The notes under the pieces are model-generated. The model ran no database searches and was not told the DNA's origin. It saw only the letters and a list, made by a program, of their open reading frames with translations. Shown here in pieces: positions 16,411-36,449 of a DNA stretch of 45,612 nt. Numbering within the stretch: the first letter of the stretch is position 1; every line of letters begins with the position of its first letter. The stretch comes from Cloacibacillus sp. (lineage in GTDB: Bacteria > Synergistota > Synergistia > Synergistales > Synergistaceae). A program made the translations under genes and the position numbers. Location of the stretch: contig JAVVPF010000004.1 of assembly GCA_036655895.1 (NCBI GenBank), positions 62,848 to 108,459 on the forward strand, read 5' to 3'.

Positions 16411-19400
16411 ATTTTAATCCACGCAGTCCTTGCGGATCGCGATGATAGAGGTTCGCAGCCTCTATGCCATTCATGAAATTTTAATCCACGCGGTCCTTGC
16501 GGATCGCGACGTAGATAAAAATGGCCGGCGTATATTCGAGGGCATTTTAATCCACGCGGTCCTTGCGGATCGCGACGGCCAGATGCCTCGCGAATGGTGA
16601 CGCTGGCCTTATTTTAATCCACGCGGTCCTTGCGGATCGCGACTAAATGCCATAAGTACAAACAAAATGGGTATGAGATTTTAATCCACGCGGTCCTTGC
16701 GGATCGCGACGAGTGACCAAGCTGGAGAAAGAACGCTATGGTACGATTTTAATCCACGCGGTCCTTGCGGATCGCGACTAGATATATATTTACCTTGATA
16801 AAGGATTGTATATTTTAATCCACGCGGTCCTTGCGGATCGCGACGCAAGAAATATCTGCCAGTCCGCTTGGAGCTTGCTTCATTTTAATCCACGCGGTCC
16901 TTGCGGATCGCGACTGGTTGCCAGTCTCTCTAGGGGGATAATCATTATGTTTTTAATCCACGCGGTCCTTGCGGATCGCGACGTTTTCGCAGGTGGGGGT
17001 GATTGGATGAGCATAACTTTTTAATCCACGCGGTCCTTGCGGATCGCGACATAACTGCACTGCGCCATTTACCTTTGGCGATAGATTTTTAATCCACGCG
17101 GTCCTTGCGGATCGCGACCCGATACGGGTTAAATCTGCAAAGAATGGATATTTTTTTAATCCACGCGGTCCTTGCGGATCGCGACACATGCCGAACTTGC
17201 CGCCCTGCAAGTCGCAAACTTTTTAATCCACGCGGTCCTTGCGGATCGCGACGCGACACTTTCCACGATCCCGTCCGTAGGGTAACCTTTTAATCCACGC
17301 GGTCCTTGCGGATCGCGACGATGGCGCATGCAAGCGCAATGCTGAACGAGAGCGCTTTTAATCCACGCGGTCCTTGCGGATCGCGACGCCGTCCGGGGTG
17401 AATAAACCGGAAATAGCACAACTTTTAATCCACGCGGTCCTTGCGGATCGCGACTTGCCCTCCAGTTCATGCTAGACACAAGCCTCTCACTTTTAATCCA
17501 CGCGGTCCTTGTGGATCGCGACCCTCACCTACGGTGCAAAGAAATACGCTGAGCGCCTTTTAATCCACGCGGTCCTTGCGGATCGCGACATGTCCGCTAC
17601 AGACATAGCCGCAAGACTGGCGGCTTTTAATCCACGCGGTCCTTGCGGATCGCGACTTACCGGGGATTGTTTTGAGGTCTTTGTCAAGGGACTTTTAATC
17701 CACGCGGTCCTTGCGGATCGCGACCGTGGGAGTTGCGTGGTTTTTCTATAAGTCCGGTCTTTTAATCCACGCGGTCCTTGCGGATCGCGACTAAAGAATG
17801 GGAGAGCAAGCAGCGTTAGACATGCCTTTTAATCCACGCGGTCCTTGCGGATCGCGACCTCTTTTTCCGTCATCATACGTATGAAACGATTGCTTTTAAT
17901 CCACGCGGTCCTTGCGGATCGCGACCTGCCGTCCCAGCCCCGGACTCAAACCTCCCACAACTTTTAATCCACGCGGTCCTTGCGGATCGCGACGGCATAA
18001 AGGCGGTGGTATCGTGAAAGAGAAAATACTTTTAATCCACGCGGTCCTTGCGGATCGCGACCCTGTGCAGGAAATAGTAATCGTTGGCGATAACCTTTTA
18101 ATCCACGCGGTCCTTGCGGATCGCGACCCCCCGCCTACTGGATACGCAACGCCCAAATAGCTTTTAATCCACGCGGTCCTTGCGGATCGCGACGCGAGCT
18201 ACCGATCACCGAGGGTAGCAACGTCCTCCTTTTAATCCACGCGGTCCTTGCGGATCGCGACTCCATTGTGCTGTCTGTTAGCCTACTTTATGTATCTTTT
18301 AATCCACGCGGTCCTTGCGGATCGCGACGTGATGTTCATCTCGTTTTTGTCGGCAGTAAGCTTCTTTTAATCCACGCGGTCCTTGCGGATCGCGACTGCC
18401 TTGCAATGTTGCTGTGCCCACGGGTACTACCTTTTAATCCACGCGGTCCTTGCGGATCGCGACGTATTGACGGATGGTGGCAGTCGGGCGGCGTCCAAGC
18501 TTTTAATCCACGCGGTCCTTGCGGATCGCGACTTTTGCTCCAGCCGCGTCCGTCGTCGTACTGGCCTTTTAATCCACGCGGTCCTTGCGGATCGCGACTA
18601 TTTGCCTACATTAGTGTCATGTGCTGCGTTATCTTTTAATCCACGCGGTCCTTGCGGATCGCGACTTTAATCACATACTTATGCAGCGGATTTGCGCATC
18701 TTTTAATCCACGCGGTCCTTGCGGATCGCGACGAGTCCTTTTGAGCTTTTAAAAGTGTTATAAATGCTTTTAATCCACGCGGTCCTTGCGGATCGCGACA
18801 AATCCTCATCATATTTATGAGTATACAAGTCTTCTTTTAATCCACGCGGTCCTTGCGGATCGCGACGCAAGAGCACCTGGCCATGCAGTGATAACCGTGA
18901 CCTTTTAATCCACGCGGTCCTTGCGGATCGCGACCGAGCCACTTGAAGAAGCTCATTATCAACAGCAATCTTTTAATCCACGCGGTCCTTGCGGATCGCG
19001 ACGCGCTGCTGAAGCTTTAGCTCAACAACAGGTACAACTTTTAATCCACGCGGTCCTTGCGGATCGCGACAAAAATAAATACTCAATTTGCCGACGCGGA
19101 CGCCTTTTAATCCACGCGGTCCTTGCGGATCGCGACAATGGACTGAACGAACATGGGAAACTGGCAGCTGCTTTTAATCCACGCGGTCCTTGCGGATCGC
19201 GACCAATAATGCAAACGGGCGGTATATTAAATGGGCCCTTTTAATCCACGCGGTCCTTGCGGATCGCGACGCGGAGCAAATGCACGCTCTCGGTCAAGGG
19301 CTGGCTTTTAATCCACGCGGTCCTTGCGGATCGCGACGCTAGCAATTCAAGAAACCGCCATTTCGATTTACTTTTAATCCACGCGGTCCTTGCGGATCGC

Positions 19401-21217
19401 GACTCAATTTCTATCCATTCAGAAACAAGATTTCTATCTTTTAATCCACGCGGTCCTTGCGGATCGCGACTTCACCGTGGTACTGCGTGAGAAATGCGGC
19501 CACCTTTTAATCCACGCGGTCCTTGCGGATCGCGACGCAGTCGTATCCGTGATTCACGCTGATGATGAATGCTTTTAATCCACGCGGTCCTTGCGGATCG
19601 CGACTACCTTCGGCAACCACGTTGCCATAGTCGAGGAAGCTTTTAATCCACGCGGTCCTTGCGGATCGCGACATTGACAGGCGCCACCCCCGCGGTTCCA
19701 AATAGGCCTTTTAATCCACGCGGTCCTTGCGGATCGCGACATTCCCACCCTCCGCAGTATCTCGCTCTCGCGCGCTTTTAATCCACGCGGTCCTTGCGGA
19801 TCGCGACTGTGAGGAAGGTATAAACAATGGACTCATTGCTCTTTTAATCCACGCGGTCCTTGCGGATCGCGACCAAAAAACGGCCAGCGCAACAGCAAAA
19901 TCAGCTTCCTTTTAATCCACGCGGTCCTTGCGGATCGCGACGGCATCAAGAAGTCCGTCTGTTTCGATGTCGAACTTTTAATCCACGCGGTCCTTGCGGA
20001 TCGCGACACTTCCAGTCGGCCTCAGTCAGCTGCTCACAGATACTTTTAATCCACGCGGTCCTTGCGGATCGCGACGCCATAAGCGTCAGTCATCATCCTG
20101 CGGTCAATCTTTTAATCCACGCGGTCCTTGCGGATCGCGACGCCGCTCCATCATCCAGTAGATTGCCCATTGGTGACCTTTTAATCCACGCGGTCCTTGC
20201 GGATCGCGACGAAATGGGCCAGCCGCTTCTACAAACTCATGGTACTTTTAATCCACGCGGTCCTTGCGGATCGCGACCCTGTTTTTGAGTATGAGGATGC
20301 CGCTTACATTGCTTTTAATCCACGCGGTCCTTGCGGATCGCGACAGATGTCGCGGACGTAGTAGACCCGCTGGAATTTACTTTTAATCCACGCGGTCCTT
20401 GCGGATCGCGACCAATGCAAATACAGCGGTGGGGCGAGTGCGTGCGCTTTTAATCCACGCGGTCCTTGCGGATCGCGACGTGCAGTGCTTCGGCATGGGA
20501 AATATCGTAAAGCTTTTAATCCACGCGGTCCTTGCGGATCGCGACCAACTTTTCGCAGTTATCGCATATCATACCGCACTTTTAATCCACGCGGTCCTTG
20601 CGGATCGCGACATAAAACGATTACGGTCTGCAAGGTCGGAGATGCTTTTAATCCACGCGGTCCTTGCGGATCGCGACGAACCTGCTCACAGATGAGATTG
20701 CAGAACTTTGGCTTTTAATCCACGCGGTCCTTGCGGATCGCGACCAGCTCGTACATCTTAAAGGAATGCTTTGCACCGCTTTTAATCCACGCGGTCCTTG
20801 CGGATCGCGACCATGGGAGCCTCACACGTGTCCAGATATCCCAGACTTTTAATCCACGCGGTCCTTGCGGATCGCGACGTTTGGCCGCCCTAGGCAAACA
20901 GCAGGGCCAATACCTTTTAATCCACGCGGTCCTTGCGGATCGCGACATAATTCGTCCGGGCATATTGCAGGCCCGTGCGCTTTTAATCCACGCGGTCCTT
21001 GCGGATCGCGACAGCCTCCGAATGCTTTTTCCCACATTTCGATGTTCTTTTAATCCACGCGGTCCTTGCGGATCGCGACGGGCAGTTCAGAAGGTGCCAT
21101 GTCCTCTTCATTGCACTTTTAATCCACGCGGTCCTTGCGGATCGCGACGGCACAGGCCGGTGAGATAAATAAAATCGCAACACCCTTTTAATCCACGCGG
21201 TCCTTGCGGATCGCGAC
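16411..21217 (-). CRISPR. type I-C CRISPR array, 72 repeats and 71 spacers
   Basis: I counted 72 copies of a 33-bp repeat with spacers of about 33-36 bp. Read on the minus strand the repeat begins GTCGCGATCCGCAAGGACC and ends GCGTGGATTAAAA plus one variable base; this is the I-C form, with a CGCG-x-TCC / GGA-x-CGCG stem closed by a GCAA tetraloop and a GTGGATTAAAA handle. Transcription is leftward, away from cas2: the copy at 16411-16443 is the degenerate trailer end (CGCAG for CGCGG, last base of the plus-strand unit C to T) and copies near 21217 are uniform. The variable last base is T in the 8 oldest repeats, A in the next 5 and G in the remaining 59. The repeat at 17490-17522 has one further private change. 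ORFs across the array are artefacts. Confidence 0.98.
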
Positions 21218-21382: not shown

Positions 21383-21673
21383 CTACAGGATATGCACTCC
21401 TTCGGGATCGAAGGTCTGCTTAGCTCCGATATGTTCTACTCGTTTTTTCCAATTATTCCCCAATTGATAATACCGCAGGCTGTCCGTTTCCGTGTCTATT
21501 ATCTTTTCCAATTTATGGCACAGTTCAAGTCTTTGGGCCTGATCAACAAGACATTCAAAGACAGAGTTCTGAACCCTTTGGCCGTAATCTTCACAGATTT
21601 TAGCAACTCGCCTAAGCCGCTTACGGCCATCTGCAGTTTGCGTGTTGACATCATATGTTATCAGCAACAACAT
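21383..21673 (-). CDS. cas2: Cas2, CRISPR adaptation protein
   Basis: A 96-residue Cas2 of the I-C form: MLLLITYDVNTQTADGRKRLRRVAKICEDYG carries the conserved Asp8, followed by QNSVFECLVDQAQRLELCHKL. It forms the dimer that bridges two Cas1 dimers to integrate new spacers. GAGGA lies 9 nt before the ATG; the gap to cas1 is 12 bp. It is the last gene of the cas operon and abuts the leader. Confidence 0.96.
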   Translation of the reverse strand: MLLLITYDVNTQTADGRKRLRRVAKICEDYGQRVQNSVFECLVDQAQRLELCHKLEKIIDTETDSLRYYQLGNNWKKRVEHIGAKQTFDPEGVHIL

Positions 21674-21685
21674 TTTATCATATCC

Positions 21686-22717
21686 TCATTTCCAATGAAA
21701 AGGCGGATATCCGTCAAGGTCGCCGCGAAGGTAGGCTGAAAATAACATCGCCTGCGTATGGTACATCAAGCCTAACGGAATTTTTTCGTTGAGGAATGGA
21801 TGGATCAGTTCGTCCCTTTTGCGTTCCTGATAATTTTTCAAAATCTCCTTGCGGCAGGCGTCATCCATTGTAACGCCGCCGGTCTCCGCTCGCGTAAAGT
21901 TCCCGGGTTTTACCTGTTTTCTGTTGATAAGGCTCAACACAAGCCGATCCGCTATCATGGGGCGGAACTCCTCTATGATGTCTAAGGCAAGGCTCGGCCG
22001 CCCAGGCCTGTCCGCATGAAGAAAACCCACGGCCGGATCCAGCCCAACACCCTCAAGAGCAGAAGCAATGTCATGTGTGATTACAGTATATATGAATGAG
22101 AGCATAGCATTAACATTATCCATTGGCGGCCGACGGCTTCGTCCATGAAAATTAAAATGATCTTTTCTAGCCACGATAAGATCGTCAAAAACGGCGAAAT
22201 AGCTCCTCGCGGCATCTCCTTCGATGCCTCTTACCGTCTCGAGCGGAAGCCAAGTTTTCAGGTGTGTAAGGACTTCGCCGAGGTTTACAATGGCCTTCTG
22301 CAGCCTTGCCGCGCCGGAGCTGCCAGGGTATTCCCGAAGCGCCCGTGATAATACCGTCCGGCAGTTTGCAATTTTTGCCGCGACGAAACGTCGCGCAATC
22401 TCAGCTCTTTGTTTTTCGTCATCGGCAATCCTGTATTGCTTGCGCCTAACAAGGACATTGCCGGAGACGCCGCCATTTACTCTAGCGAGAAATTTGCCGT
22501 TTTCCGTAAAGAAGGAGACACCGACACCGTTTTCTCCACACATTCCAAGAAGAGCCGGCGAACACATGACATTGCCAAAGCATAAAATATTAGACTGGTT
22601 GTGGATCGGAAAACGCTGCTTCAGCTCTTTATCGACGTAGACGGCTATCGTCTCTCCTTCTTTGCACAGATAAGATCCCTGTGTGAGAATGTAAAGACTG
22701 TTTTGTAGTTTTTTCAT
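21686..22717 (-). CDS. cas1: Cas1, CRISPR integrase (type I-C)
   Basis: A 343-residue Cas1. The metal-binding residues are visible in their usual contexts: the glutamate in RGIEGDAARSYFAVFDDL, the histidine in VGFLHADRPGRPSLALD and the aspartate in LALDIIEEFRP. N-terminal NSLYILTQGSYLCKEGETIAV and SPALLGMCGENGVGVSFF match the I-C subgroup. It shares one base with the cas4 stop (TAATG) and has a GAGGGGGG ribosome site. Cas4-Cas1-Cas2 would select and trim spacers carrying the correct PAM. Confidence 0.97.
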   Translation of the reverse strand: MKKLQNSLYILTQGSYLCKEGETIAVYVDKELKQRFPIHNQSNILCFGNVMCSPALLGMCGENGVGVSFFTENGKFLARVNGGVSGNVLVRRKQYRIADDEKQRAEIARRFVAAKIANCRTVLSRALREYPGSSGAARLQKAIVNLGEVLTHLKTWLPLETVRGIEGDAARSYFAVFDDLIVARKDHFNFHGRSRRPPMDNVNAMLSFIYTVITHDIASALEGVGLDPAVGFLHADRPGRPSLALDIIEEFRPMIADRLVLSLINRKQVKPGNFTRAETGGVTMDDACRKEILKNYQERKRDELIHPFLNEKIPLGLMYHTQAMLFSAYLRGDLDGYPPFHWK

Positions 22718-23388
22718 TACAGGCCCCCCTCGTCAGATTCACAGAAAAAGCTCTCAAAATATTGGTTGGCGTCTATTCTTTTGATCGCTTTGGGCATACA
22801 GATATCATACAGAGAGCAGCCTTTGCATTTTTTGTCATACCTGGGGGGTGGCGTTTTACCTTCCGCTAGAAATTTATGTACGGATTCCGCCGTCTCCACT
22901 GTCTGTTCTCTGAGGCAATAATCGAACGTTATCTCCTGCCGGCGCCTACTTTCTCCCCAGTAGATAGCCCCCATGTCGATTTGCGTTTTCAGCATCTCTT
23001 CAAGGCACATACATTGTGCGCAGAGCTGGATCATATACGGAAGCTCCTCATGCGTACTTCCGCGCTTGTATTCGACAGGGTACGGGACCCAGAGCCCCTC
23101 CGCGCCGGGGATAACGATTCCAGAATCGGCGGACCGGTGAAATTCTACAATATCTGAAGTCCCGGAAAGCCCGAGGGCAAAGGAGTGCAAACGAAGCGAC
23201 ATTCTGATTTTAAGATCTCTTCGGTTTTCGGCAGACTCTGAATGAGCCCTTTCGTGCATTATCTCTCCGTCTACAGTGGCTGCATTTTCATCCCAATGCT
23301 GTTCTATGCCTATAAGGGCGGCACGTCTTTTACAAAAAGTGTAATGCTGAAGCAGCGAAATGGAGACAAGTTCTTCTTCGTCATACAT
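22717..23388 (-). CDS. cas4: Cas4, CRISPR adaptation nuclease (4Fe-4S)
   Basis: A 223-residue RecB-family exonuclease. The N-terminal cluster cysteine is in LLQHYTFCKRRAALIGIEQHW, the nuclease histidine in DGEIMHERAH, the QhXXY-type core includes YPVEYKRG, and the three C-terminal cysteines are in KKCKGCSLYDICMP. Cas4 ensures spacers are taken next to a PAM and inserted in the right orientation. GGAGGG lies 8 nt before the ATG; 33 bp separate it from cas3. Confidence 0.96.
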   Translation of the reverse strand: MYDEEELVSISLLQHYTFCKRRAALIGIEQHWDENAATVDGEIMHERAHSESAENRRDLKIRMSLRLHSFALGLSGTSDIVEFHRSADSGIVIPGAEGLWVPYPVEYKRGSTHEELPYMIQLCAQCMCLEEMLKTQIDMGAIYWGESRRRQEITFDYCLREQTVETAESVHKFLAEGKTPPPRYDKKCKGCSLYDICMPKAIKRIDANQYFESFFCESDEGGL

Positions 23389-23421: not shown

Positions 23422-25698
23422 TTAAATGAAGGCTCCGCCTGCCATGTCGATCCTCCTATTGTCTAACACACCTGCCATGTAACCTATAAACTTATCATAC
23501 CTATAGGGCCAGAAGAATATATCAGGATGGCTCTTTAACTTTTCCACTCCCAATTTTGAGGCAGAACGACAAAAAATCTGCACGCTATATTCCTGAAGCT
23601 CCCTCCAGTCTACAGGTTCATGGTTTTCAAGCCGTTCTTTAAGCTGAGCGTCAACGATAACGGTAACAGTCTGCGTGTCAATTACTTTGAACTTCTCTTC
23701 GACTGTTTTAAATTCAAGCGCTCCCTCATGTTTGACAAGATCATTTTCCAAACTTGCCGTTTGGTTCAACTCGTTCAGTTCACGCCTCAATGCGTCTGTG
23801 CACATCTTTGAAAGATCTGCATTTTCTTCGCATAGATTTTCATTTTTAGAAAAGAGTTCCATCAATATTTGTGAAGATGTGTCGAAGCTGGGATGGCGTT
23901 TGAGCAGTCCGTCAAAATTGAGCTCTATTGTCCAGACGGTCGAATCAGTGTATTCTTGCTCGTCGTTTCGCCGTATCCGTCCTGCAAGCTGCAGCAGGTT
24001 GACCAAGCCGGCAGCCTCTCTAACGCCAGTTCTGAAAGAAAAGTTGACGCCGGCCTCAACACAGGAGGTCGCGACCAGCGTCCAGTTCGTGTCTTTTTTA
24101 TCATTGAGGCGGTCTTTTATTTTATCCACCAAATGTTCTCTGTCGACAGGAGCGAGCGCCGTCGAGATATGTTCCACGGCATCCGCGCCACACCGTTCCT
24201 TCAACATCTGCGCGATGACTGCGGCGGATTGGACAGTGTTGAGAATGACTAATCTGGGGCCTTCCAAAGAGAGCAGCCAGTCACACAGCTCTTCTTCTTT
24301 CATTTTTCCCCTCATACAGCGATAACGTATACGGCGCTTTTCTGCGTTATAAAGCCCCCTGCGAAAATCCTCGGGCAGTAAAGAGGGGATATCGGGCTGC
24401 CCTTCGTCTATCTCCTTCAGTTTCCATAATTTATAAAGGGAACCGGAAGCAAGTATAAAATGGCAATTCCATATACTGGAATATTCTTTGATCCATTTCC
24501 ATGCAAGCGGCCACAATTTTATGGGAAGCGCCGTATGGGCCTCATCAATAAAGACGCTGCTGTTTGTAAGCTCATGAAGTTTGCGAAGCGCGGAAGGCGA
24601 CGCCGCGGCCATCGTTTCAAAAAACTGAACAGCGGTAGTCACCACTATTGGAGCGCGCCACAGCACTGAGAGCTTTCTGCTGTTTTCGTCTTCAAATTCA
24701 GCCTTATGGTGTATGGCGCTGACTACACGCTTCATCTCCGCTTCACTTTCACCCGGCAGGCGAAGAGCTTCCCTCAAAATGTCGACTGTTTGGTTTAGTA
24801 TGTTGGTAAAGGGCAGAACGATAAAAAGATGCCGAAGGTTCCTATCCGCCGCCGTTTTAAGCTGACAGGCCGCTAACGCGGTAGTTTTTCCCGTTCCCAC
24901 TGGGCTGTCGCAGAAGGTGATTTCGTGGTCTGTATCCGCACTACGGCAATGTACATACATTTGGTTTCTATTTTCATTTCTTTCAGAGTGCTTCGTCCCC
25001 GGAGATTGAAGTGACGCGATATACCGATCAAGCGCCTCAAGTCTTTCTCTAGCGCGCAGGGGAGGAAATTCCTTTTCCTCCAAATCGTTATAATTTACCG
25101 CCGTATCCGAGTGATCCGCGTCCACAAGACACGAGAACAAGAGACGCATCGTCACGGGAAGCTTGACTTCATCTTCGCAACGCTGTTTTAGAATATTTTT
25201 TCGCTCTCTTTGCAACGCGGTGTCGTGGAAGGTGAGATATTGTTCAAGGTTGCGTTCGCTGTCGGCACAGCTATTTTCATCTTCAGAACGATATTTAAGA
25301 TCCTGCGCCGTAGGCATGGCAGGCAAGTTGGGCAGCCCTTTATGATGAGCATATATCATAAGGGCGCTTAAGGGAGCTTTTTTCTGCGTCATGTAAAGTG
25401 CGCCCGCATCCCAATGTTTTATAGGCAGGCTCCTTGCAGCACGACGTCCATTAAGAACATCCTGATTTAAAGCATTCAGTTTTCCTAAATCATGAAATTC
25501 AGCGGCAAGCATAAGCCGTGCGGTCATAAACTTGTAGCGCGGCCGCTCCCCTTTCACCGGCTTTATTGCGAGAGCAAAGCGTGAGCATCGCTCACAGACA
25601 TTGAGGACATGGACGCAATAGTCCTGAGCAGGAATATCCTGCTCAGGACGCGCGCTGTGCGCAAGAAAGGTGCTTACTGGGCAATCAGGTCCGTGCAT
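23422..25698 (-). CDS. cas3: Cas3 nuclease-helicase (type I-C)
   Basis: A 758-residue Cas3. The N-terminal HD nuclease has FHDLGKLNALNQDVLNG, HWDAGALY and IYAHHKGLPNLP (about residues 67-125). The helicase has Walker A SPVGTGKTTALA, DEAH box VFIDEAHTALP, motif III ASGSLYKLW, GVNFSFRTGVREAAGLVNLLQLAGRIRRN (motifs V-VI). It is recruited by target-bound Cascade to nick and degrade the foreign DNA. The start overlaps the end of cas7 by 25 bp and uses AAGGA 9 nt upstream. Its position between cas7 and cas4 differs from the common I-C order, where cas3 comes first. Confidence 0.96.
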   Translation of the reverse strand: MHGPDCPVSTFLAHSARPEQDIPAQDYCVHVLNVCERCSRFALAIKPVKGERPRYKFMTARLMLAAEFHDLGKLNALNQDVLNGRRAARSLPIKHWDAGALYMTQKKAPLSALMIYAHHKGLPNLPAMPTAQDLKYRSEDENSCADSERNLEQYLTFHDTALQRERKNILKQRCEDEVKLPVTMRLLFSCLVDADHSDTAVNYNDLEEKEFPPLRARERLEALDRYIASLQSPGTKHSERNENRNQMYVHCRSADTDHEITFCDSPVGTGKTTALAACQLKTAADRNLRHLFIVLPFTNILNQTVDILREALRLPGESEAEMKRVVSAIHHKAEFEDENSRKLSVLWRAPIVVTTAVQFFETMAAASPSALRKLHELTNSSVFIDEAHTALPIKLWPLAWKWIKEYSSIWNCHFILASGSLYKLWKLKEIDEGQPDIPSLLPEDFRRGLYNAEKRRIRYRCMRGKMKEEELCDWLLSLEGPRLVILNTVQSAAVIAQMLKERCGADAVEHISTALAPVDREHLVDKIKDRLNDKKDTNWTLVATSCVEAGVNFSFRTGVREAAGLVNLLQLAGRIRRNDEQEYTDSTVWTIELNFDGLLKRHPSFDTSSQILMELFSKNENLCEENADLSKMCTDALRRELNELNQTASLENDLVKHEGALEFKTVEEKFKVIDTQTVTVIVDAQLKERLENHEPVDWRELQEYSVQIFCRSASKLGVEKLKSHPDIFFWPYRYDKFIGYMAGVLDNRRIDMAGGAFI

Positions 25699-26522
25699 GT
25701 GACTTTATCCTTCAGCTCTGAAGGCAGTCCAGCAGCAAGTTCGTAATCTGTAAGCGCCGAAGAGGGCGCGGCGATATCACCCTTTCTTTTCGGCGTAAGG
25801 GCATCAATAAGCGCAAAGTCGGAACAGCTGCCAAGCGGGTTTTTATGTTCGCAGAACCACGCCTGACGCACCTCCACAAATGGACGTATGGCGGAACGAT
25901 TGTGCGAATAGGCGTAAGGGATAAGCGCCTTCATCACCTCAATATCCATCGCCGTGCATCCAGATTTATGCGCACAGTTTGGATTGACAAAAAACGGCAT
26001 GACATAGAGGCCGTGAGTCACTATTTTATAGGCCATTGGAGCCATTCCCTGATTTTTACCCTCCTGGACGCCCGCCTTATTTGTGTTCGTCTGCGCCTCA
26101 TACTGGATCGGAGAGAGGGAGATGCCCATGCCGAACTGAACGACGCCGGTTTTGATGCTGGCTTTGTCCATATTATCCTCAAGGAAGGTATTTCCAAAAA
26201 TTCTGCCGTCCCAGTATTTATCCTTAAAAGAACCGTCAGCGATTTCCTTTTGTATCTCTTTTCTGTTGCGGCCCCTGGACTCAAGGATCATAAACTTCTC
26301 GTCCTCAAGCTTCAGCTTTGCCTTCATATAATTCCAGACTGGCCCCTCTTTATCCTCGACAAGATCGCGGAGCTTCCTCTTAAAAGAGACAGGGGAGATC
26401 TCCCCGCGTCCGTCATACCGCCTGCGTGGGGCGCCATCCACATCAGGATCTCCATTGGGATTTGAATTTATTACCTCCAGCACTAAAAGTCCGGTAACGC
26501 GGTTGAGAAATTCACTACTCAT
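25674..26522 (-). CDS. cas7: Cas7 (Csd2), Cascade backbone subunit
   Basis: A 282-residue Cas7 of type I-C, the crRNA-binding filament subunit. LLVLEVINSNPNGDPDVDGAPRR is the family's N-terminal signature; KRKLRDLVEDKEGP, YWDGRIFGNTF and GVVQFGMGISLSPI follow. I start at the ATG at 26522, giving MSSEFLNRVTG, because GGGAGGA lies 7 nt upstream; an in-frame extension of 24 basic residues is upstream and not family-like. It overlaps the cas8c stop by 8 bp. Confidence 0.96.
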   Translation of the reverse strand: MSSEFLNRVTGLLVLEVINSNPNGDPDVDGAPRRRYDGRGEISPVSFKRKLRDLVEDKEGPVWNYMKAKLKLEDEKFMILESRGRNRKEIQKEIADGSFKDKYWDGRIFGNTFLEDNMDKASIKTGVVQFGMGISLSPIQYEAQTNTNKAGVQEGKNQGMAPMAYKIVTHGLYVMPFFVNPNCAHKSGCTAMDIEVMKALIPYAYSHNRSAIRPFVEVRQAWFCEHKNPLGSCSDFALIDALTPKRKGDIAAPSSALTDYELAAGLPSELKDKVTCTDLIAQ

Positions 26523-26979
26523 TTTCCAGTCCTCCCTTTGATATGTTTGCTTCCAGATTGACCTGCGGATCTGACGTGTCGTTTTCTTTTTCACTCTTTA
26601 CTGAGCAGCCTGCCATGTATCCTAAATAGAGCTGTGCCGTCTCCTCCGGATTCAGACGGCTGGTGGGAAGAGAATCATAATCCAATTCTTTACTTATTGT
26701 GTTAAACTGCCGGTCCAACCAGCGGCTGAGCCGCCAGTCTTCGTCCTGGTCTGTTTTACTCCATGTCAGGTATGGCCTGATACGCTGCCCCAGCGTACCT
26801 ATGACCTCCCTCGGATGAAGCTCCGCTTCGGCAAGCATGGCGTTTCCCACCAGCTGCATGGGCACATTAACGGTCTTTGATCTAGCGTCCTTGGGCGTCC
26901 TAATATATTTGCAGTACTGATACTGAAGACTGTCCGCCAACGCCAGAAGCGTCCCTATCTTAAATATTGAACTGTTCAT
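26515..26979 (-). CDS. cas11c: Cas11c from internal start within cas8c
   Basis: Within cas8c an in-frame ATG at 26979 is preceded by a near-perfect Shine-Dalgarno, AAGGAGG at 26985-26991, 5 nt away. Translation from it would give a separate 154-residue, mostly helical protein (MNSSIFKIGTLLALADSLQ onward) sharing the cas8c stop. Type I-C is known to make its small subunit Cas11c from such an internal start, and this is the right part of the gene. Cas11 lines the Cascade belly and stabilises the R-loop. Confidence 0.75.
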   Translation of the reverse strand: MNSSIFKIGTLLALADSLQYQYCKYIRTPKDARSKTVNVPMQLVGNAMLAEAELHPREVIGTLGQRIRPYLTWSKTDQDEDWRLSRWLDRQFNTISKELDYDSLPTSRLNPEETAQLYLGYMAGCSVKSEKENDTSDPQVNLEANISKGGLENE

Positions 26980-28767
26980 GTAATCCTCCTTTTTACAGCC
27001 AAGCTTGTAAAGAAGCAGCGCAAGAATGGCCGGATTTGCTATCTTGTCTCCGCCCTTTTTTCCGGAGAGTATGACGCCTCGGTGCATCGATTCTCCCAAA
27101 TGCGCAAAAAAGGGCGCAGTGTTTGACATAAAAATTGAAAGCAGATTGTTCAGGTATCCCGTCTCTTTTTCTTTGAGCAGCAGGACAAGCCCCTCAAGTG
27201 GGTCTACCCTCTTCGACGGAGAATATTCTGTGCCATTCTGACGCCACACCTTATTTGCGTACAGAGCGAATTCTTTGGGGAAAATGGCTCTCATGTGCGA
27301 TATTACCACCTCGCCTTTGCTGTCGCCCCAGTCCCGCATTACAAGCAGTTTATCCGGGAGGTTTTTGCAGGCCGCCGTCCATTCCTCGGCTGCGTGCATA
27401 AACTGTTCGGCGGAAAAGTTGGTGTAATAAACGACCTTAGTGCGCGCCTTGTCCATTTTTTTGATCGCGAATATAAGTATCTCTATCTCAGAGATACTTC
27501 GGCAGCGTCCCTGCAGCGTCTCTATCACCTGTTTTGAGAGTTCTTCAAAGGTGGCTCGATCTGTCTCAAAATCGTTGCCCGTCATCGCGGCGGTGGTAGG
27601 CGACGCATCAAACGACATAACTTCGTCATATTCATCTTCGTCTACCACCTCTTTGGGAATAAGGCGAGGATAAGCAAAGAGGAGTTCTTTGTCGCCCATG
27701 ACGTCCCACGTTTTTCCCTTGAGGTCATCCTGAGAGAGCGACTCCAAAGCAAGTTTAGCGCTGCGGCGGCTCTCGTCCCCCATTGGAAATGACTCATAAT
27801 CGGCTACCCCGTAACGCAGCTGGCACGGGGCCTCCTTCACCATTGAACGAAGGATAACATCACCGAGCACCGGCACTCTTACGCTGGGCATTTTTTCATT
27901 CATCTTATACGCAGGATTATTGAAGGCGTCCCGCGCCTTGGGCAGCTCGTCCGCTTCCGGCGCCTTTGAAGCCGCGAGCAGGCGGCGGTTGATCCAGCCT
28001 ACGGTATTTCGATGCGCAACAGAGTTGCCCTCCGGGCCGTAGTCCATAATATCCAGATAGACCATCTCACTGGGAATGGTTGAGCTGATCGGTTTCGTCA
28101 AAAATAATAACGGCGAATAGAACTCCCAGTCTTCGAAGCTCTCGATTCTTGACAGTGCAAAAGTAAAGACCGCGTCCATGAATTGTTCCGCATTTATTTT
28201 TTCGATGCGTTCATGCAGCGTGCAATAACTGGAACATCTGCCCTCAGCATCTTCTGGCTTGATTTGCTGCCAAAGATTTGCGGCGGTATCCTTGATACAT
28301 TTTTTGACCTTGGCAGTTACCTTTTCACGGTATTGCGGCATCGCAGCATCCGCGCCTGATGGCGCGTTATATATAGCCTGACGAAGAGACTGGGCGTCGA
28401 AGGTCGTTTTAAATTTTTGCAGCAAATATTTTGGACGCTGTTTTTCTGGGATCGTATTCAGCATTGCGTTTTCTTCAGGGAACCGGGCCAGTATATATCC
28501 TCTAATAAATTCGTTGATCTCCAACGGGACGCTGGGCGGCAGATTGAACCCCGGGAACGAAAATCCGTTTGATTCTTCATATTTTCTCAGACCGGCGGCG
28601 TTTTCTGCCTTTATTCGAGTGATGCCGTCAACGCAGGGCGACCCGACGCAGAGCGTGATTTTATACAGGTCGCCCTTTGCCATCGGTTTCAGCCTCTGAT
28701 CCCACTCCTGCGTTGCGATGTTTTTGAACGCCGGATTGACTCCGGCTGGATAAAGTTCATTGAGCAT
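26515..28767 (-). CDS. cas8c: Cas8c (Csd1), large Cascade subunit
   Basis: A 750-residue Cas8c, the subunit that reads the PAM in type I-C Cascade. Family landmarks include a short N-terminus with YPAGVNPAFKNIATQEWDQR, WRQNGTEYSPSKRVDPLEGLVLLL, and the C-terminal helical region YKLGCKKEDYMNSSIFKIGTLLALADSLQ. As I recall, most Csd1 proteins are about 570-620 residues, so this one is unusually long. I start at the ATG at 28767 (MLNELYPAG), with GAGAAGG 8 nt upstream; a GTG 9 bp further up is possible. It overlaps the end of cas5 by 11 bp. Confidence 0.92.
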   Translation of the reverse strand: MLNELYPAGVNPAFKNIATQEWDQRLKPMAKGDLYKITLCVGSPCVDGITRIKAENAAGLRKYEESNGFSFPGFNLPPSVPLEINEFIRGYILARFPEENAMLNTIPEKQRPKYLLQKFKTTFDAQSLRQAIYNAPSGADAAMPQYREKVTAKVKKCIKDTAANLWQQIKPEDAEGRCSSYCTLHERIEKINAEQFMDAVFTFALSRIESFEDWEFYSPLLFLTKPISSTIPSEMVYLDIMDYGPEGNSVAHRNTVGWINRRLLAASKAPEADELPKARDAFNNPAYKMNEKMPSVRVPVLGDVILRSMVKEAPCQLRYGVADYESFPMGDESRRSAKLALESLSQDDLKGKTWDVMGDKELLFAYPRLIPKEVVDEDEYDEVMSFDASPTTAAMTGNDFETDRATFEELSKQVIETLQGRCRSISEIEILIFAIKKMDKARTKVVYYTNFSAEQFMHAAEEWTAACKNLPDKLLVMRDWGDSKGEVVISHMRAIFPKEFALYANKVWRQNGTEYSPSKRVDPLEGLVLLLKEKETGYLNNLLSIFMSNTAPFFAHLGESMHRGVILSGKKGGDKIANPAILALLLYKLGCKKEDYMNSSIFKIGTLLALADSLQYQYCKYIRTPKDARSKTVNVPMQLVGNAMLAEAELHPREVIGTLGQRIRPYLTWSKTDQDEDWRLSRWLDRQFNTISKELDYDSLPTSRLNPEETAQLYLGYMAGCSVKSEKENDTSDPQVNLEANISKGGLENE

Positions 28768-29431
28768 AGCTGTCACCTTCTCGCTGTGGATAACTTAGTG
28801 CTCCCTCTTTGATCGGGACGTTCTGAGCAAAGCAGAAACGCGGCTGCGAATCAAATCCGTCGGGAAAAACTTCCATAAGAAGGCTGGGAATGACCATATT
28901 GATATCGCGGCAGCGATGAGTCTCACTCCGCAACGGCCCCAGATAGTCCGGCGCAAATTCGTTCCACCCAAGCGATGGCATCCGATATAACTGGCCTCTC
29001 TTCAGCCTGCGTTCAAATATCGCTTTGTAAGCGTGTCCGGGCGACGTCGTATTGGCGTCCCATTGCTTTGCCTTGTCCGTCATTTTTTCCCTGCCGCAAG
29101 CTAGAGGGCGCGCCTCGGCGTACAATTTATAACAGACGTCGACAAGAATGGTCGCCAGCAGCTGATAGTTTGAGCCGCTGGATATTGCGCTGGAATGTCT
29201 CAGCGGGCCGCCATAGTTGGTAATGTAATTTTCAAACCTAATTGGCGAGCATATTTCGACCCTCTGCGGTATAATGGTTACAGCAGGCCCCCAATTTATT
29301 GATTCGAATATTCCGCGCACCGCAGACGCAGTAGGGACAGTGTAGCTGACAGGAACATCTCCCGTGTCAGGGCGCGTAAACATAGCACAGGGGCCGCTGA
29401 TTTCGCAAGAGATCTCGTAGATTTTTTGCAT
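28757..29431 (-). CDS. cas5c: Cas5c (Cas5d), crRNA-processing Cascade subunit
   Basis: A 224-residue Cas5 of type I-C. YEISCEISGPCAMFTRPDTGDVPVSYTVPTASAVRGIFESINW is the N-terminal ferredoxin-like fold with the glycine-rich region further on; YKAIFERRLKRGQLYRMPSLGWNEFAPDYLGP is the typical C-terminal stretch. In I-C there is no Cas6: this protein cuts the pre-crRNA below the repeat stem and stays on the 5' handle. It is the first gene of the operon, with AAGGAGG 10 nt before the ATG. Confidence 0.95.
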   Translation of the reverse strand: MQKIYEISCEISGPCAMFTRPDTGDVPVSYTVPTASAVRGIFESINWGPAVTIIPQRVEICSPIRFENYITNYGGPLRHSSAISSGSNYQLLATILVDVCYKLYAEARPLACGREKMTDKAKQWDANTTSPGHAYKAIFERRLKRGQLYRMPSLGWNEFAPDYLGPLRSETHRCRDINMVIPSLLMEVFPDGFDSQPRFCFAQNVPIKEGALSYPQREGDSYAQ

Positions 29432-29516
29432 TGTGTAAATGCCTCCTTTCTACATATTATTTATTTTTTAAAGGCAAGACGACGGGGGCTCCTGCCTTCA
29501 AAAAATGATTCGTTGA

Positions 29517-29556
29517 TTGACGAGGTCAATATAACACAAGAACGGCTCCTCGTCAA
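29517..29556 (-). promoter_or_regulatory. cas operon promoter with flanking inverted repeat
   Basis: On the minus strand TTGACG (29551-29556) and TATATT (29528-29533) are exactly 17 bp apart, placing the start near 29521, about 90 bp upstream of cas5. A 9-bp inverted repeat, TTGACGAGG at 29517-29525 and its complement at 29548-29556, covers the -35 and the start site. It could bind a repressor or fold in DNA. Confidence 0.7.
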
Positions 29557-29583
29557 TAAGATTAATAAACTTCAACATTATAT
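29550..29583 (-). promoter_or_regulatory. predicted protospacer of the crRNA-like RNA at the cas promoter
   Basis: On the minus strand from 29583 the first 14 nt (ATATAATGTTGAAG) are identical to the first 14 nt after the degenerate repeat at 29714. A 34-nt protospacer would end at 29550 and cover the whole -35 box of the cas promoter. The 5' flank is GTC, one base from the usual I-C PAM TTC. Beyond the seed the two stretches stay alike only with gaps (both contain TAAGATT on the plus strand), as expected for partial pairing that binds without cleavage. Confidence 0.65.
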
Positions 29584-29636
29584 GACTATTATAATTTAAT
29601 TATCTTTAATGTTGTAGGACCTTATAAATACCGCAT

Positions 29637-29778
29637 TTTAAATGAAGAGCGCGCACCTACAATAGTAGGCGCGCGCTCTTCATTTAAGATTTAATACATC
29701 TTCAACATTATATATTTTAATCCACGCAGTCCATACGGGCCGCGACAGCGAAGTTTCTATTGGCCTGTCCCTCGCATC
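29637..29778 (-). ncRNA. putative CreR-type crRNA-like RNA (degenerate repeat, guide, hairpin)
   Basis: A -10 TATAAT (29785-29790, minus) would start transcription near 29778. The RNA would then contain a degenerate I-C repeat (29746 to 29714), a guide of about 28-34 nt, and a long hairpin (arms 29640-29660 and 29665-29685, one mismatch, AATA loop). The repeat keeps GTCGCG at one end and GCGTGGATTAAAAT at the other; its middle differs but the stem still pairs (a mismatch has become G-C and its neighbour a mismatch). Its CGCAG variant and terminal T match the oldest array repeat. A single repeat suffices for Cas5c to free the 5' end. The hairpin has no long U tract, so the 3' end is uncertain. 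Role inferred from the matching site in the cas promoter. Confidence 0.65.
29714..29746 (-). repeat. orphan degenerate CRISPR repeat
   Basis: A 33-bp copy matching the array repeat at 27 of 33 positions, with the differences concentrated in the loop side of the stem. It lies 8.5 kb from the array, upstream of cas5, in the same orientation as the array. No second repeat follows at spacer distance. Confidence 0.9.
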
Positions 29779-29882
29779 CGCTGTATTATAATACATAGAC
29801 GTTATTTGAAAAGACATTTACACGCTGCACTATTTGGAGTTTTGCAATTCTGTTGCTGCGGGAACAATGCTAAAGACAAATC

Positions 29883-29940: not shown

Positions 29941-30867
29941 CTACACCCTCTCCCCGTTCACCTTCACCTCTACTCCGGACAATTTTTTGAATAGCTGCGC
30001 TTTTTGGCGCATGTGGTGGGCCTCGGGGGTCTTTACGTCGGGCAGGAGGTAGGTTTTTTCGAGGCGTTTGTAGGTTTCGGCGCCTAGTTTGTGATATGCC
30101 AGAAATTCCATGAAGCGCAGTTTTTTTATGCCTTTTACTATTTCGGCAAGCTCCGCGATATCTTCGTCCGCGTCGTTTATTCCTGGGATGAGCGGGGTGC
30201 GCGTCACAATGCCTATGTTATTTTTGGAGGCGTCCGCGCGGCGGATGTTTTCTAAAATAAGGCCGTTGCCTATGCCTGTCAGTTCTTTGTGGCGGGCGTT
30301 GTTTGGGTGTTTGATGTCAACGTGCAGAAGCGACAGAAGCGGCAGAAGCGGTTCTATCTCGCTCCACGGCGCGTGAAAGCTGCTTTCCATCGCGCAGTCG
30401 ATGCCGCGTTTTGCGCAGCCTTCAAAGACTTCGCGCACGAAGGCGCTCTGCATAAGCGGCTCACCGCCGCTTATTGTGACGCCGCCGCCTGAGTGGAAGT
30501 AAAAAAGCTCGTCTTTTGCTATTTCGCGCACGGCCTCGTCCGCCGTCATCTGAAAACCGTATCCGGCGACCGCGGCCGACGGACAAATTTTGACGCATTC
30601 AAGGCAGCCGACGCACTTCGCAGCGTCAATTTCAGGGCGTCCGCCGCGCATCGTTATAGCCGCGCGTGCGCAGCTTTGCGCGCATTTGCCGCAGCCGGTG
30701 CATTTGTCACGGTTTATGCCTCGCTCCGGCTCCACGCGCTGAGACTCCGGCGTCGAGCACCAGAGGCAGCGCAGCGGGCAGCCCTTCAGGAAGAGGACGG
30801 TGCGAAGACCGTCCCCGTCGTATATTGAGCTTTTTTCTATTCTTAGGACGCTTCCCTTTGACGCCAT
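29941..30867 (-). CDS. glycyl-radical enzyme activase with ferredoxin insert
   Basis: A 308-residue radical-SAM activase: N-terminal RIEKSSIYDGDGLRTVLFLKGCPLRCLWCSTPES with the CxxxCxxC cluster, a two-cluster ferredoxin insert (CTGCGKCAQSCARAA and CVGCLECVKICPSAA), then HSGGGVTISGGEPLMQ. The SAM-binding and C-terminal strands (LHVDIKHPNN, RTPLIPGINDADEDI, FLAYHKLGAETY) are complete. It begins 4 bp after the stop of the glycyl-radical gene at 30872 and has almost no ribosome site of its own (AAGG only 2 nt away), so it probably depends on coupling. It most likely activates that enzyme. Confidence 0.88.
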   Translation of the reverse strand: MASKGSVLRIEKSSIYDGDGLRTVLFLKGCPLRCLWCSTPESQRVEPERGINRDKCTGCGKCAQSCARAAITMRGGRPEIDAAKCVGCLECVKICPSAAVAGYGFQMTADEAVREIAKDELFYFHSGGGVTISGGEPLMQSAFVREVFEGCAKRGIDCAMESSFHAPWSEIEPLLPLLSLLHVDIKHPNNARHKELTGIGNGLILENIRRADASKNNIGIVTRTPLIPGINDADEDIAELAEIVKGIKKLRFMEFLAYHKLGAETYKRLEKTYLLPDVKTPEAHHMRQKAQLFKKLSGVEVKVNGERV

Positions 30868-30871
30868 CGCC

Positions 30872-33277
30872 TTAGCCGCAGCTGACGCAGTTGTCGTGCT
30901 GGACGGTCCTCGCTATTATGTCATCCTGCACCTCTTTGCCAAGCTCTACGAAGAAGGCAGTGTAGCCGGCGACGCGGACGAGGAGATTTCTGTATTCTTC
31001 CGGGCGCGCCTGAGCCTCAAGCAGTTTCTTCTGGTCTACGACGTTGAACTGCACGTGATAGACGCCAAGCGAGCAGAGGCTTTTGAGCATCGCCATTACC
31101 TGACGAATGCCGTTTTCGTTGTTTATCATCTCCGGGTCGAGCTTCATGTTAAGAAGCGTGCCCTGCACAAAGCGGTCGTGCGGGATGTTGGCCACCGATT
31201 TCAGCACAGCGGTGGGGCCGTTGAGGTCCGTGCCGCCGCTTGGGCTTACGCCGTCGGCGAGCGGCTTTCCAGCGCGGCGTCCCGACGGGAGCGCCCCAAC
31301 TTCGACGCCAAATGGGGTGTTGCCGGAGACTGGCAGGATGCCTGGGGTCATGACGCCGAATTTGCTCCTGTAGCTTTCTATCTCGTCCGCAATATAGGAG
31401 AAGAGCTCCGCCGCAAGGCCGTCGACGGCTGTGTCGTCGTTGCCGAATTTCGGCGCTTCACAGCAGGCTTTGAGCACTTCGGGGGAGTCCTCGAAATCGC
31501 AGGAGAGCGCGTTCAGAAGGCCCGCCATCGTGACGCTCTTCGTATCGTAGACGAGATGTTTTATCGCGGCCACGCTGTTTATGAGGTCAGATACGCCGAT
31601 GCAGATTATGCCGTTTCCGGTGTTGTATTTCGCACCGCCCCAGGCGTAGTCTTTCGCGTTTTCGATACATTCTTCGAAGCTTACAGAGAGCGCGGGCACG
31701 GGGCGTTCAAGGCATATTTCGTCGATGATGTGGCTTGCCTTGACGACGACCTTTATCACGTAATGGAGCTGCGCTTTGAGCGCCGCCATAAAGTCTTCAA
31801 ATGTTCCAAAGCTCGTGGGGTCGCCCGTCTGCGCGCCAGCCAGTTTTCCGCTCTTTCTGCATTTTCCGTTAAGCAGCACAAATTCTACGACGCTGCCGAG
31901 GTTTATGTCCGCAAGCGCCGAATATCCGCGCACTTTTCCTGCGAGGTTCGTCTCGACGCAGCCGCCGGGGTTCCAGTCAAGCGCCTCGCGGATGGGGATG
32001 CCCTTGTTCATCAGCATACGGATGCCAACCTCGTCGTTGTGGAAGGCGGGGAAGCCCGTTCCCATCGCCATGAGTTCTACTATCTTGCGCAGGAAGGAGT
32101 TGGGGTTCTTGGCCATGTTGTAGCGCACGGAAAGCGAGGGCTGGTAAAGCTGCGTATCCATCGTGGCCTGAAGTATCATGTATGAAAGGTCGTTTACCGC
32201 GTCTCGTCCCATCTTGTCTACGCCGCCGGCGCAGAGGTTCTGGAACATCGGGTATCCAGAGGCGTATTCCGCGGACTTTTCATCCTGGAAGAGGCACGGC
32301 TCGGAGAATTTTACCCAGAGGCAGCCGAAAAGTTCCTGCGCCTGTTCTGGCGTAAGGCGTCCCGCCGCTACGTCCGCCTTGTAAAACGGATAGAGGTACT
32401 GGTCCATGCGCCCCGGATTGTAGGCGGCGGCGTTCTGTTCCATGAATATGCATATCTGATAGAAATAGAATGACTGCATCGCCTCGCGGAAGGTGCGCGC
32501 AGGGTAGGCTGGCACGCGGCGGCATATCCGCGCTATTTCGCGAAGCTCCGCTCTGCGCGCGGCCACGGGTTCCGCCGCGGCAAGTCTGTCGGCTTCAGCG
32601 GCGTAGCGTTCGGCAAGCGTCTCCATGCCTTCGCAGACGACAAGCAGCGCGTCAAGATAGACCTCTTTTTCGTAGTCTCCTGGAATGGTGGCGTCCAGCT
32701 TCGCTTTGCGATCAAGTATCCTCTTGCGCAGGCCTTCCACGCCGTTGTTGATGAACCATTCGTAGCCCGCCGTCACCTCGCCCCAGCCGCGCACGGCCTT
32801 TTTGTCGATGTAGAGCGCTCCGTTGTCGCGAAGCGCCGCCACGTCCTGCGGGATGCGCGCAAGCCACTCTTCGTAGTTGGAACGCCCCTTCCAATAGGGA
32901 CGGATTATCTCTTCAAAGTCTTTTTTATCCTCGGGCAGCAGTTTGAACTTGTCGTAGCTGCGCGTATTTATAGTTTCAAGCTCGCGGTCGAGCACCGACC
33001 AGCAGACGTCCGCGGAAAGTATGCCGCCGCGTATCTTGCTGCCGGCGTTTCCAACGATCAGCTCGTCGTCCCATATTTTGACGCTCTTTTCGCGGCACTG
33101 CTTCAGGAAGGCCTTCGCCTTGCGCGTGACGAGGTTCTCCCCCTGAGTTTCTACAAAGCTCTGCGTCAGCAGCTTCGCGTCCTCAAGGTCTATTTCGGGA
33201 TAGGTCTCAAAGACTTTCGCCTTTAGCCTGTTTATGCGTTCCATGTATTTCGGGCTTTTTTCTTCCATATTTTCCAT
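30872..33277 (-). CDS. glycyl-radical enzyme, substrate unassigned (GGCVETN type)
   Basis: A protein of about 801 residues in the pyruvate formate-lyase/glycyl-radical family. The active-site loop is NPGGCVETNLAGKVRGYS with Cys440 and Glu442; the radical loop is RVAGYTAFF with Gly771. The Glu two residues after the Cys is the feature of lyases and dehydratases rather than true pyruvate formate-lyase. The asparagine after GCVET and the following text do not match choline, glycerol, isethionate or hydroxyproline enzymes as I remember them. The protein ends NCVSCG, an unusual CxxC tail beyond the radical domain. GGGAGG precedes the start; GTG (33280) and ATG (33277) are both possible. It follows another glycyl-radical gene after about 14 bp. 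Confidence 0.82.
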   Translation of the reverse strand: MENMEEKSPKYMERINRLKAKVFETYPEIDLEDAKLLTQSFVETQGENLVTRKAKAFLKQCREKSVKIWDDELIVGNAGSKIRGGILSADVCWSVLDRELETINTRSYDKFKLLPEDKKDFEEIIRPYWKGRSNYEEWLARIPQDVAALRDNGALYIDKKAVRGWGEVTAGYEWFINNGVEGLRKRILDRKAKLDATIPGDYEKEVYLDALLVVCEGMETLAERYAAEADRLAAAEPVAARRAELREIARICRRVPAYPARTFREAMQSFYFYQICIFMEQNAAAYNPGRMDQYLYPFYKADVAAGRLTPEQAQELFGCLWVKFSEPCLFQDEKSAEYASGYPMFQNLCAGGVDKMGRDAVNDLSYMILQATMDTQLYQPSLSVRYNMAKNPNSFLRKIVELMAMGTGFPAFHNDEVGIRMLMNKGIPIREALDWNPGGCVETNLAGKVRGYSALADINLGSVVEFVLLNGKCRKSGKLAGAQTGDPTSFGTFEDFMAALKAQLHYVIKVVVKASHIIDEICLERPVPALSVSFEECIENAKDYAWGGAKYNTGNGIICIGVSDLINSVAAIKHLVYDTKSVTMAGLLNALSCDFEDSPEVLKACCEAPKFGNDDTAVDGLAAELFSYIADEIESYRSKFGVMTPGILPVSGNTPFGVEVGALPSGRRAGKPLADGVSPSGGTDLNGPTAVLKSVANIPHDRFVQGTLLNMKLDPEMINNENGIRQVMAMLKSLCSLGVYHVQFNVVDQKKLLEAQARPEEYRNLLVRVAGYTAFFVELGKEVQDDIIARTVQHDNCVSCG

Positions 33278-33291
33278 CACAGTCAGCCTCC

Positions 33292-35670: not shown

Positions 35671-35684
35671 GCTGCATCCTCCCA

Positions 35685-36449
35685 CTATTTTTGTTCAATT
35701 ATATTAAGGTCGTATTTTTTTAGGATAGTTACCGCGTCGTTGTACTGAGCGTCGCTTGGGGGCAGCGTGTCGGCGAGCGCGTAGTTCCTGCCCAGCTCCT
35801 CATAAAGCCCGACGCCGAGGCGGTGATAACGCAATATTTCAACCGACGCGCCGGGACGCGCAGCCGCTGCGAAGGCACCAAGGCGTTCAAGCTCCTCCTT
35901 CGCGTCATTGCACCCTGGCACAAGCGGAAAACGAAGCAGCGCCGCGGCGTCGCTCTTCAAAATATATTCCGCGCCGCTCAGTATCCCCTCGTTGTCAAAC
36001 CCAGTCAGCTTTTTATGAAGCGACGGGTCCATCGCCTTTATGTCCAACTGGATGAGGTCGGCCTTTTGCGCGACGCGCTTTAAGTCAGCGAGCGGCGCGC
36101 AGAGGCAGCTTTCTATAGCCGTGTGCACGTAATGCGCGCGGCATATATCAAGAAACTCAGCGGCAAATTCAGGCTGAGAGAAGACCTCTCCGCCTGACAG
36201 CGTAATACCGCCGCCAGAGCGCCGCCAAAACGGAGCGTCGCGACTCACCTTTGAAAAAAGTTCGTCCGCAGAGACGACGCTTCCAAAGACCTTCCCACTT
36301 TTTGATTTTTCTATTTCAAAACTTTGAGATTGAGGGCTGCAGCACCAGAGGCACCGCATGGGGCAGCCTTTGAGGAATACCGTGGTCCTTATGCCCGGCC
36401 CGTCGTGGACGGCATATCGAGCAATATTAAAGATCAACCCTTCCGCCAT
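35685..36449 (-). CDS. short glycyl-radical enzyme activase without ferredoxin insert
   Basis: A 254-residue radical-SAM activase. LIFNIARYAVHDGPGIRTTVFLKGCPMRCLWCCSPQS contains the CxxxCxxC cluster; after only about 45 residues it goes into SGGGITLSGGEVFSQPEF. The two extra 4Fe-4S motifs found in most activases of non-PFL enzymes, and in the other two activases here, are absent, so it resembles PflA in layout. GGEVF replaces the more usual GGEP. I start at the ATG at 36449 because GAGGGA lies just upstream; the longer frame starting at 36488 would run through the operator and the leader. It is the first gene of the dual glycyl-radical operon. Confidence 0.85.
   Translation of the reverse strand: MAEGLIFNIARYAVHDGPGIRTTVFLKGCPMRCLWCCSPQSQSFEIEKSKSGKVFGSVVSADELFSKVSRDAPFWRRSGGGITLSGGEVFSQPEFAAEFLDICRAHYVHTAIESCLCAPLADLKRVAQKADLIQLDIKAMDPSLHKKLTGFDNEGILSGAEYILKSDAAALLRFPLVPGCNDAKEELERLGAFAAAARPGASVEILRYHRLGVGLYEELGRNYALADTLPPSDAQYNDAVTILKKYDLNIIEQK

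Follow-up and report, generated by a model that had tools for sequence, protein, structure and literature searches.

A solitary CRISPR repeat in front of a divergent type I-C cas operon, predicted to encode a CreR-type autorepressor RNA

Type I CRISPR-Cas operons may be controlled by the very effector that they encode. For a divergent type I-C operon of Cloacibacillus sp. (Synergistaceae), sequence comparison indicates that the minus strand from 29812 to 29638 very probably encodes a CreR-type, crRNA-like RNA that would autorepress the adjacent cas genes. All positions refer to the window, the whole stretch of 45,612 nt that was analyzed (GCA_036655895.1, contig JAVVPF010000004.1, 62,848-108,459), which stems from a genome of 2.9 Mb.

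A divergent type I-C locus carries a solitary repeat outside its array

The operon runs in the order cas5c-cas8c-cas7-cas3-cas4-cas1-cas2 and is followed by an array of 71 repeats with the consensus GTCGCGATCCGCAAGGACCGCGTGGATTAAAAG (Table 1). The presence of Cas5c, Cas7c, Cas8c and Cas3, the lack of Cas6 and repeats with an 11-nt handle place the system in type I-C. Because Cas5 and Cas7 match the I-C models with scores below the NCBIfam cut-offs and Cas8c is recognized by PADLOC only, with Cas1 scoring above its cut-off, it is a divergent member of this subtype. The cas promoter is kept as TTGACA-17-TATACT in two relatives, G014 and G015, which belong to another genus of the same family and encode Cas5 and Cas7 proteins about 70% and 80% identical to those of the window.

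Table 1. Features of the type I-C locus and of the candidate regulatory RNA (window positions)
Feature	Positions	Strand	Remarks
CRISPR array	16479..21217	-	71 repeats; source of competing crRNAs
cas2	21383..21673	-	assigned by position and size
cas1c	21686..22717	-	above NCBIfam I-C cut-off
cas4	22717..23388	-	fifth gene of the operon
cas3 (HD and helicase)	23422..25698	-	fourth gene of the operon
cas7c	25674..26594	-	I-C model match below NCBIfam cut-off
cas8c	26515..28776	-	PADLOC Cas8c, 1.1e-146; no match in NCBIfam
cas5c	28757..29431	-	heads the operon; presumably the processing nuclease and a subunit of Cascade
cas promoter	29528..29556	-	TTGACG (29556-29551), 17-nt spacer, TATATT (29533-29528); 10/12 consensus matches
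target site 2	29550..29586	-	GTC PAM (29586-29584) and protospacer (29583-29550); covers the -35 box
target site 1	29584..29620	-	GTC PAM (29620-29618) and protospacer (29617-29584); guide positions 2-16 pair only with G-U wobble
23-bp hairpin	29638..29687	-	overlaps 3' part of guide; -41.9 kcal/mol, z -13; no clean T tract
guide (psi-spacer)	29680..29713	-	seed (29713-29700) matches cas promoter at 14/14
degenerate solitary CRISPR repeat (psi-repeat)	29714..29746	-	GTCGCGGCCCGTATGGACTGCGTGGATTAAAAT; upstream of the operon; stem of array repeat kept
putative sigma-70 promoter of solitary-repeat RNA	29785..29812	-	TTTTCA (29812), 16 nt, TATAAT (29790-29785); 10/12, consensus hit only

Other elements were seen around the operon. 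At the promoter of the window, a 9-bp inverted repeat (TTGACGAGG..CCTCGTCAA, 29519-29556), whose left arm falls on the -35 box and which is absent in the relatives, is a possible protein operator. In all three genomes, inverted repeats with hairpin potential separate the cas promoter from the ribosome-binding site of cas5 (29430-29520 in the window; equivalents in L040 and L041), and of these folds that of the window alone beats shuffles. The region 29941-35685 holds an activase (29941-30867), a PFL2-family glycyl-radical enzyme (30872-33280) and a second gene similar in size to the latter (33292-35685).

A first reading of this DNA, made from the letters alone (the sequence-only reading), had pointed to a degenerate repeat upstream of cas5 with a likely promoter of its own. 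The repeat is indeed present and keeps the stem of the array repeats, and the promoter was recovered as a consensus hit. In every array repeat and solitary repeat that we folded, the base of the stem lies 11 nt from the 3' end, so that the geometry of the solitary repeat fits processing by Cas5c. Cleavage by the type I-C nuclease Cas5d leaves an 11-nt 5' handle (PMC5965380), and the handle predicted here would comprise the last 11 nt of the solitary repeat (29724-29714, TGGATTAAAAT). As described for CreR genes, this is a degenerate repeat outside the array and near cas, with its processing signals retained. No comparable promoter was found in front of the solitary repeat of G014 and G015, which may rely on read-through transcription. 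The hairpin that overlaps the guide in the window is a possible terminator or 3' stabilizer; strong hairpins, unrelated in sequence, also lie 3' of the guide in the two relatives, and since these are not followed by a T tract, a role in termination is uncertain. Searching the window against Rfam gave no match.

The exact guide match in the cas promoter is unique in the genome

Immediately after the repeat, 14 nt (minus strand 29713-29700, ATATAATGTTGAAG) are identical to minus-strand 29583-29570 in the cas promoter. They occupy guide positions 1-14, so that the match sets in precisely where the repeat gives way to the guide. Both this identity and a protospacer running from 29583 across the -35 box (29551-29556) had been claimed in the sequence-only reading; the former proved to be the only such pair in the genome, and the latter extends to 29550 as envisaged. 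The 14-mer occurs at these two places only, within the window as well as, at zero mismatches, in the 2.9-Mb genome. Based on base composition, its chance expectation in the intergenic region is about 1e-5, and about 1e-7 if the GTC flank is included. Among 1433 GTC-preceded sites in the window, one matches the seed (positions 1-5 and 7-11) in full and the runner-up reaches 7/10. The best region-wide 20-nt matches in the three genomes score 16, 17 and 18, compared to a shuffle mean of about 12.3, and were equaled by 1/2000, 0/2000 and 0/2000 shuffles, respectively. Shuffles, the ranking of GTC sites in the window, genome-wide uniqueness and the base-composition expectation led us to reject a chance match. 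Other genomic targets were likewise rejected: an exact PAM-plus-seed site is found once in each genome (that of the window, G014 and G015), before cas5, and is exclusive to cas.

The guide is partly complementary to the cas promoter with the seed included, as CreR guides are, matching at 14/14 positions in the window and at 10/10 seed positions in G014 and G015. A full-length match between guide and cas promoter was found neither in the window nor in G014 or G015. The earlier claim that homology fades after the seed holds in register; it does not hold once 1-nt gaps are admitted, as only then is the window guide homologous to the promoter beyond position 14 (2/3000 shuffles as good). In the G014 and G015 guides, distal homology to the promoter is not significant. 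The distal homology in the window could be explained by a guide that was copied from the promoter and later acquired small indels.

GTC is the PAM of this type I-C lineage

The published consensus PAM of type I-C systems is TTC (PMC6546366, PMC7913775), and the GTC flank of the target had initially been counted as a fault. This objection was abandoned once prophage protospacers turned up with GTC. Spacers of the arrays yielded 21 protospacer matches, mostly in prophages of the two relatives, with the flanks GTC (11), GTT (3), GTA (2), GGG (2), GCC (1), CTT (1) and ATC (1); these matches are not all independent, some of them representing the same spacer at homologous places and both GTA cases being contig ends of one genome. 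Spacers of the G014 array find targets in a prophage region of that genome (L104), in its homologous counterpart in G015 (L105) and at a few further positions. Among the GTC matches, those of spacer 17 (in G014) and spacer 31 (in G015) span the full length (34/34). The array of the window's genome has a single protospacer match, located on its own phage contig C54 (L106) and showing GTC and 33/34 identical positions. No spacer target match was obtained in the phage collection. Given that 11 of the 21 matches carry GTC, we take it as the cognate PAM. The TTC motif is typical of type I-C though not strictly defining, and the divergent lineage represented by L104-L106 and the window array uses GTC instead, a PAM variant within I-C. 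All six target sites in the three genomes (6/6) are flanked by GTC, and the proposed target thus bears the PAM of the effector, as in known CreR systems.

Self-targeting spacers with a GTC PAM and near-perfect or perfect matches were observed at L106:5557-5589 (own contig C54) and L104:10401-10434 (G014 prophage). Both places lie in or over tape-measure genes, one on a phage-like contig and the other in a prophage, each belonging to the genome that carries the spacer, which suggests anti-CRISPRs, low cas expression or, for C54, a phage contig binned with its host.

Guide and target have changed together in a second lineage

In the relatives G014 and G015, about 335 nt separate cas5 from a solitary repeat upstream of it (GTCGCGAATCCAGGTTCGCGTGGATTGAAAT and GTCGCGAATTTAAGCTCGCGTGGATTGAAAT, respectively), which is followed by the guide CTATGTTTTTTATATGGAATATAGTGAG. 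Their cas promoter contains two GTC-flanked sites; site 2 reads CTATGATTTTTATTTG(G/T)AAT, and site 1 is similar. Compared to the window, the guide differs at 4/10 seed positions. When guides were swapped between lineages, each matched site 2 of its own lineage at 10/10 seed positions and that of the other lineage at 6/10. The G014/G015 guide pairs with its own cas promoter at positions 1-5 and 7-11 and mismatches at position 6, where a mismatch is to be expected, since every sixth base stays unpaired in type I Cascade (PMC8501985). G014 and G015 share the handle and guide positions 1-28 at 100% identity; their two target sites are 87% and 96% identical, compared to 57-83% for other segments.

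Covariation of guide and target in related genomes had been named in advance as a check on the proposal. The match is kept in both relatives, with guide and target altered together, and the joint maintenance expected of a CreR is therefore seen in two lineages with different guide/target pairs. Such natural covariation is strong evidence for selection on seed pairing. Moreover, the genes neighboring the window's operon are not found beside cas in G014 and G015, nor does any homologue of the glycyl-radical enzyme genes lie there, indicating that the linkage of repeat, target and operon has persisted although their genomic surroundings differ. Along with the cognate GTC PAM, the covariation supports, at the level of sequence, the original assignment of the element as a CreR for a type I-C system.

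A second GTC-flanked site lies about one protospacer length upstream

In all three genomes, site 1 is located upstream of site 2 at a distance of 34-37 bp, about one protospacer length. Site 1 of the window reaches 15/16 when matches and wobble pairs are counted, a measure by which no other GTC site of the window except site 2 exceeds 11/16, and may be a decayed copy; in G014 and G015, site 1 is a true tandem seed match (9/10). The target region is rich in A and T, in keeping with an UP element, and in the two relatives the 34-nt protospacer of site 2 stops 2 bp short of the -35 box. Two Cascades could occupy these tandem protospacers, of which one is strong and the other weak or wobble-paired; the RNA would then be a Cas5c-processed I-C CreR with a two-site operator. 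We give this arrangement a little less than an even chance. If true, the two-site operator could render repression cooperative and cas induction switch-like.

The module was found in three genomes from two genera

The combination of solitary repeat and guide was found in three genomes belonging to two genera and forming two independent lineages. Homologous operons with about 55% Cas5 identity (G009, G036, G030 and Olsenella; loci L042, L043, L008 and L022) lack the solitary repeat. Scanning 16 further loci of the phylum with Cas5 homologues (L121-L136) gave no second case, a weak negative, because a cut-off of 66% identity failed to recover the solitary repeats already known from G014 and G015, and six of the 16 loci gave no array. 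IMG/VR contained neither a Cas7 relative nor the repeat-plus-guide pattern, and plasmids contained distant Cas5c proteins only (<60% identity). A possible mini-array was seen at L127:13244-13341, where one spacer is flanked by two solitary repeat copies with 94% and 69% identity to the array repeat; its vicinity gave no promoter match.

Proposed autorepression and alternative readings

From the arrangement of these elements, we infer that the RNA is transcribed and processed, directs binding and repression without cutting, and acts as a sensor. Cas5c would trim the transcript at the hairpin of the solitary repeat, leaving the 11-nt 5' handle and the guide, and the trimmed RNA would join Cas8c and Cas7 in Cascade. 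The complex would then bind the cas promoter at the strong GTC site overlapping the -35 box and probably also at the weaker tandem site directly upstream. Pairing of the seed (positions 1-14 in the window) should be enough for binding; repression by CreA needs no more than pairing at positions 1-5 and 7-11, and creA genes with a single repeat and a terminator are known (PMC8501985). As the distal part of the guide is out of register, the R-loop would presumably not be completed and Cas3 should not cut. Bound Cascade would block RNA polymerase, steric hindrance being the simplest reading, and keep expression of cas5-8c-7-3-4-1-2 low. Levels of cas expression would rise whenever Cascade runs short, is engaged by crRNAs from the array or is inactivated by anti-CRISPRs, the latter two routes of release being carried over by analogy from published CreRs (PMC12737573, PMC13131331), as is the relief by crRNA shortage that the sequence-only reading had proposed.

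The gapped distal homology of the window guide, which looks as if copied from the promoter, would also suit a relic of a decayed array or of a former self-targeting spacer acquired from the cas promoter, its match having no present function. A relic would be expected to drift; instead, two diverged lineages have preserved handle, seed, PAM and target as a set, with guide and target changing in concert, and the invariance of handle and guide positions 1-28 between G014 and G015 stands against 57-83% identity in the non-target flanks. We regard this explanation as very unlikely. Even less probable, in our estimate, is that the shared 14-mer serves as operator of a conventional protein repressor or activator of both transcripts and lies next to the repeat incidentally. 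Its copies in the window do reside in promoter-like DNA, and the 9-bp inverted repeats TTGACGAGG..CCTCGTCAA suggest that some such operator may exist as well, but the element is not palindromic, and a protein operator does not explain the start at the repeat/guide junction, the orientation of the guide, the cognate PAM in 3/3 genomes or the skipped position 6 in G014 and G015.

A different kind of alternative accepts RNA-guided binding of Cascade at the cas promoter and assigns another outcome to it, either activation or toxin control in the manner of CreTA or CrePA. Site 1 lies well upstream of the -35 box, a position that activators also use. Known CreR and CreA RNAs repress, however, site 2 of the window overlaps the -35 box, and the exact seed-plus-PAM site is unique and precedes cas, with no toxin-type target. 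We consider this outcome the least probable of the three, and autorepression of the cas operon remains our preferred reading.

Comparison with known systems

Type I-C is among the commonest CRISPR subtypes. If the proposal is true, RNA-guided cas autorepression extends to this subtype, in a family apparently without earlier description; it would also predict how anti-CRISPRs against I-C Cascade raise cas expression, and the tandem sites offer a direct test of cooperative RNA-guided repression. CreRs, cas-regulating RNAs, were reported by Liu et al., 2023 (Cell Host Microbe 31:1481), and according to reviews they have been demonstrated for subtypes I-B, I-E and V-A (PMC13131331, PMC12737573). 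The candidate shares with them a solitary degenerate repeat and guide beside cas and partial complementarity to the cas promoter at a cognate PAM, and it is predicted to employ its own effector. It differs from the demonstrated CreRs in belonging to type I-C, in its predicted processing by Cas5c without Cas6, and in its GTC PAM and two tandem promoter sites. Judged by these reviews, type I-C appears to be new as a CreR subtype, though the survey of Liu et al., 2023 may include predicted I-C cases.

A structural parallel within type I is the single-repeat CreA of the CreTA module from Haloarcula hispanica (I-B; PMC8501985), which likewise has one degenerate repeat, a seed at positions 1-5 and 7-11 and a hairpin or terminator in place of the second repeat. 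CreA represses a toxin RNA encoded next to it, whereas the sole exact PAM-plus-seed site in each of our genomes precedes cas5 and no toxin was seen. Among class 2 systems, tracr-L mediates autorepression of type II-A Cas9, as described in PMC11417352, and resembles the candidate in directing the effector to its own promoter by means of a partly matching guide; this repression is relieved by anti-CRISPRs according to work cited in PMC13131331. The guide of tracr-L, however, is tracrRNA-derived and of unrelated origin. Racr RNAs, as presented in PMC10651486, are phage-encoded solitary repeats and likewise mimic a CRISPR repeat. Whereas Racrs are phage-borne inhibitors of CRISPR-Cas, the repeat described here is host-encoded, lies beside cas and has a guide that is maintained.
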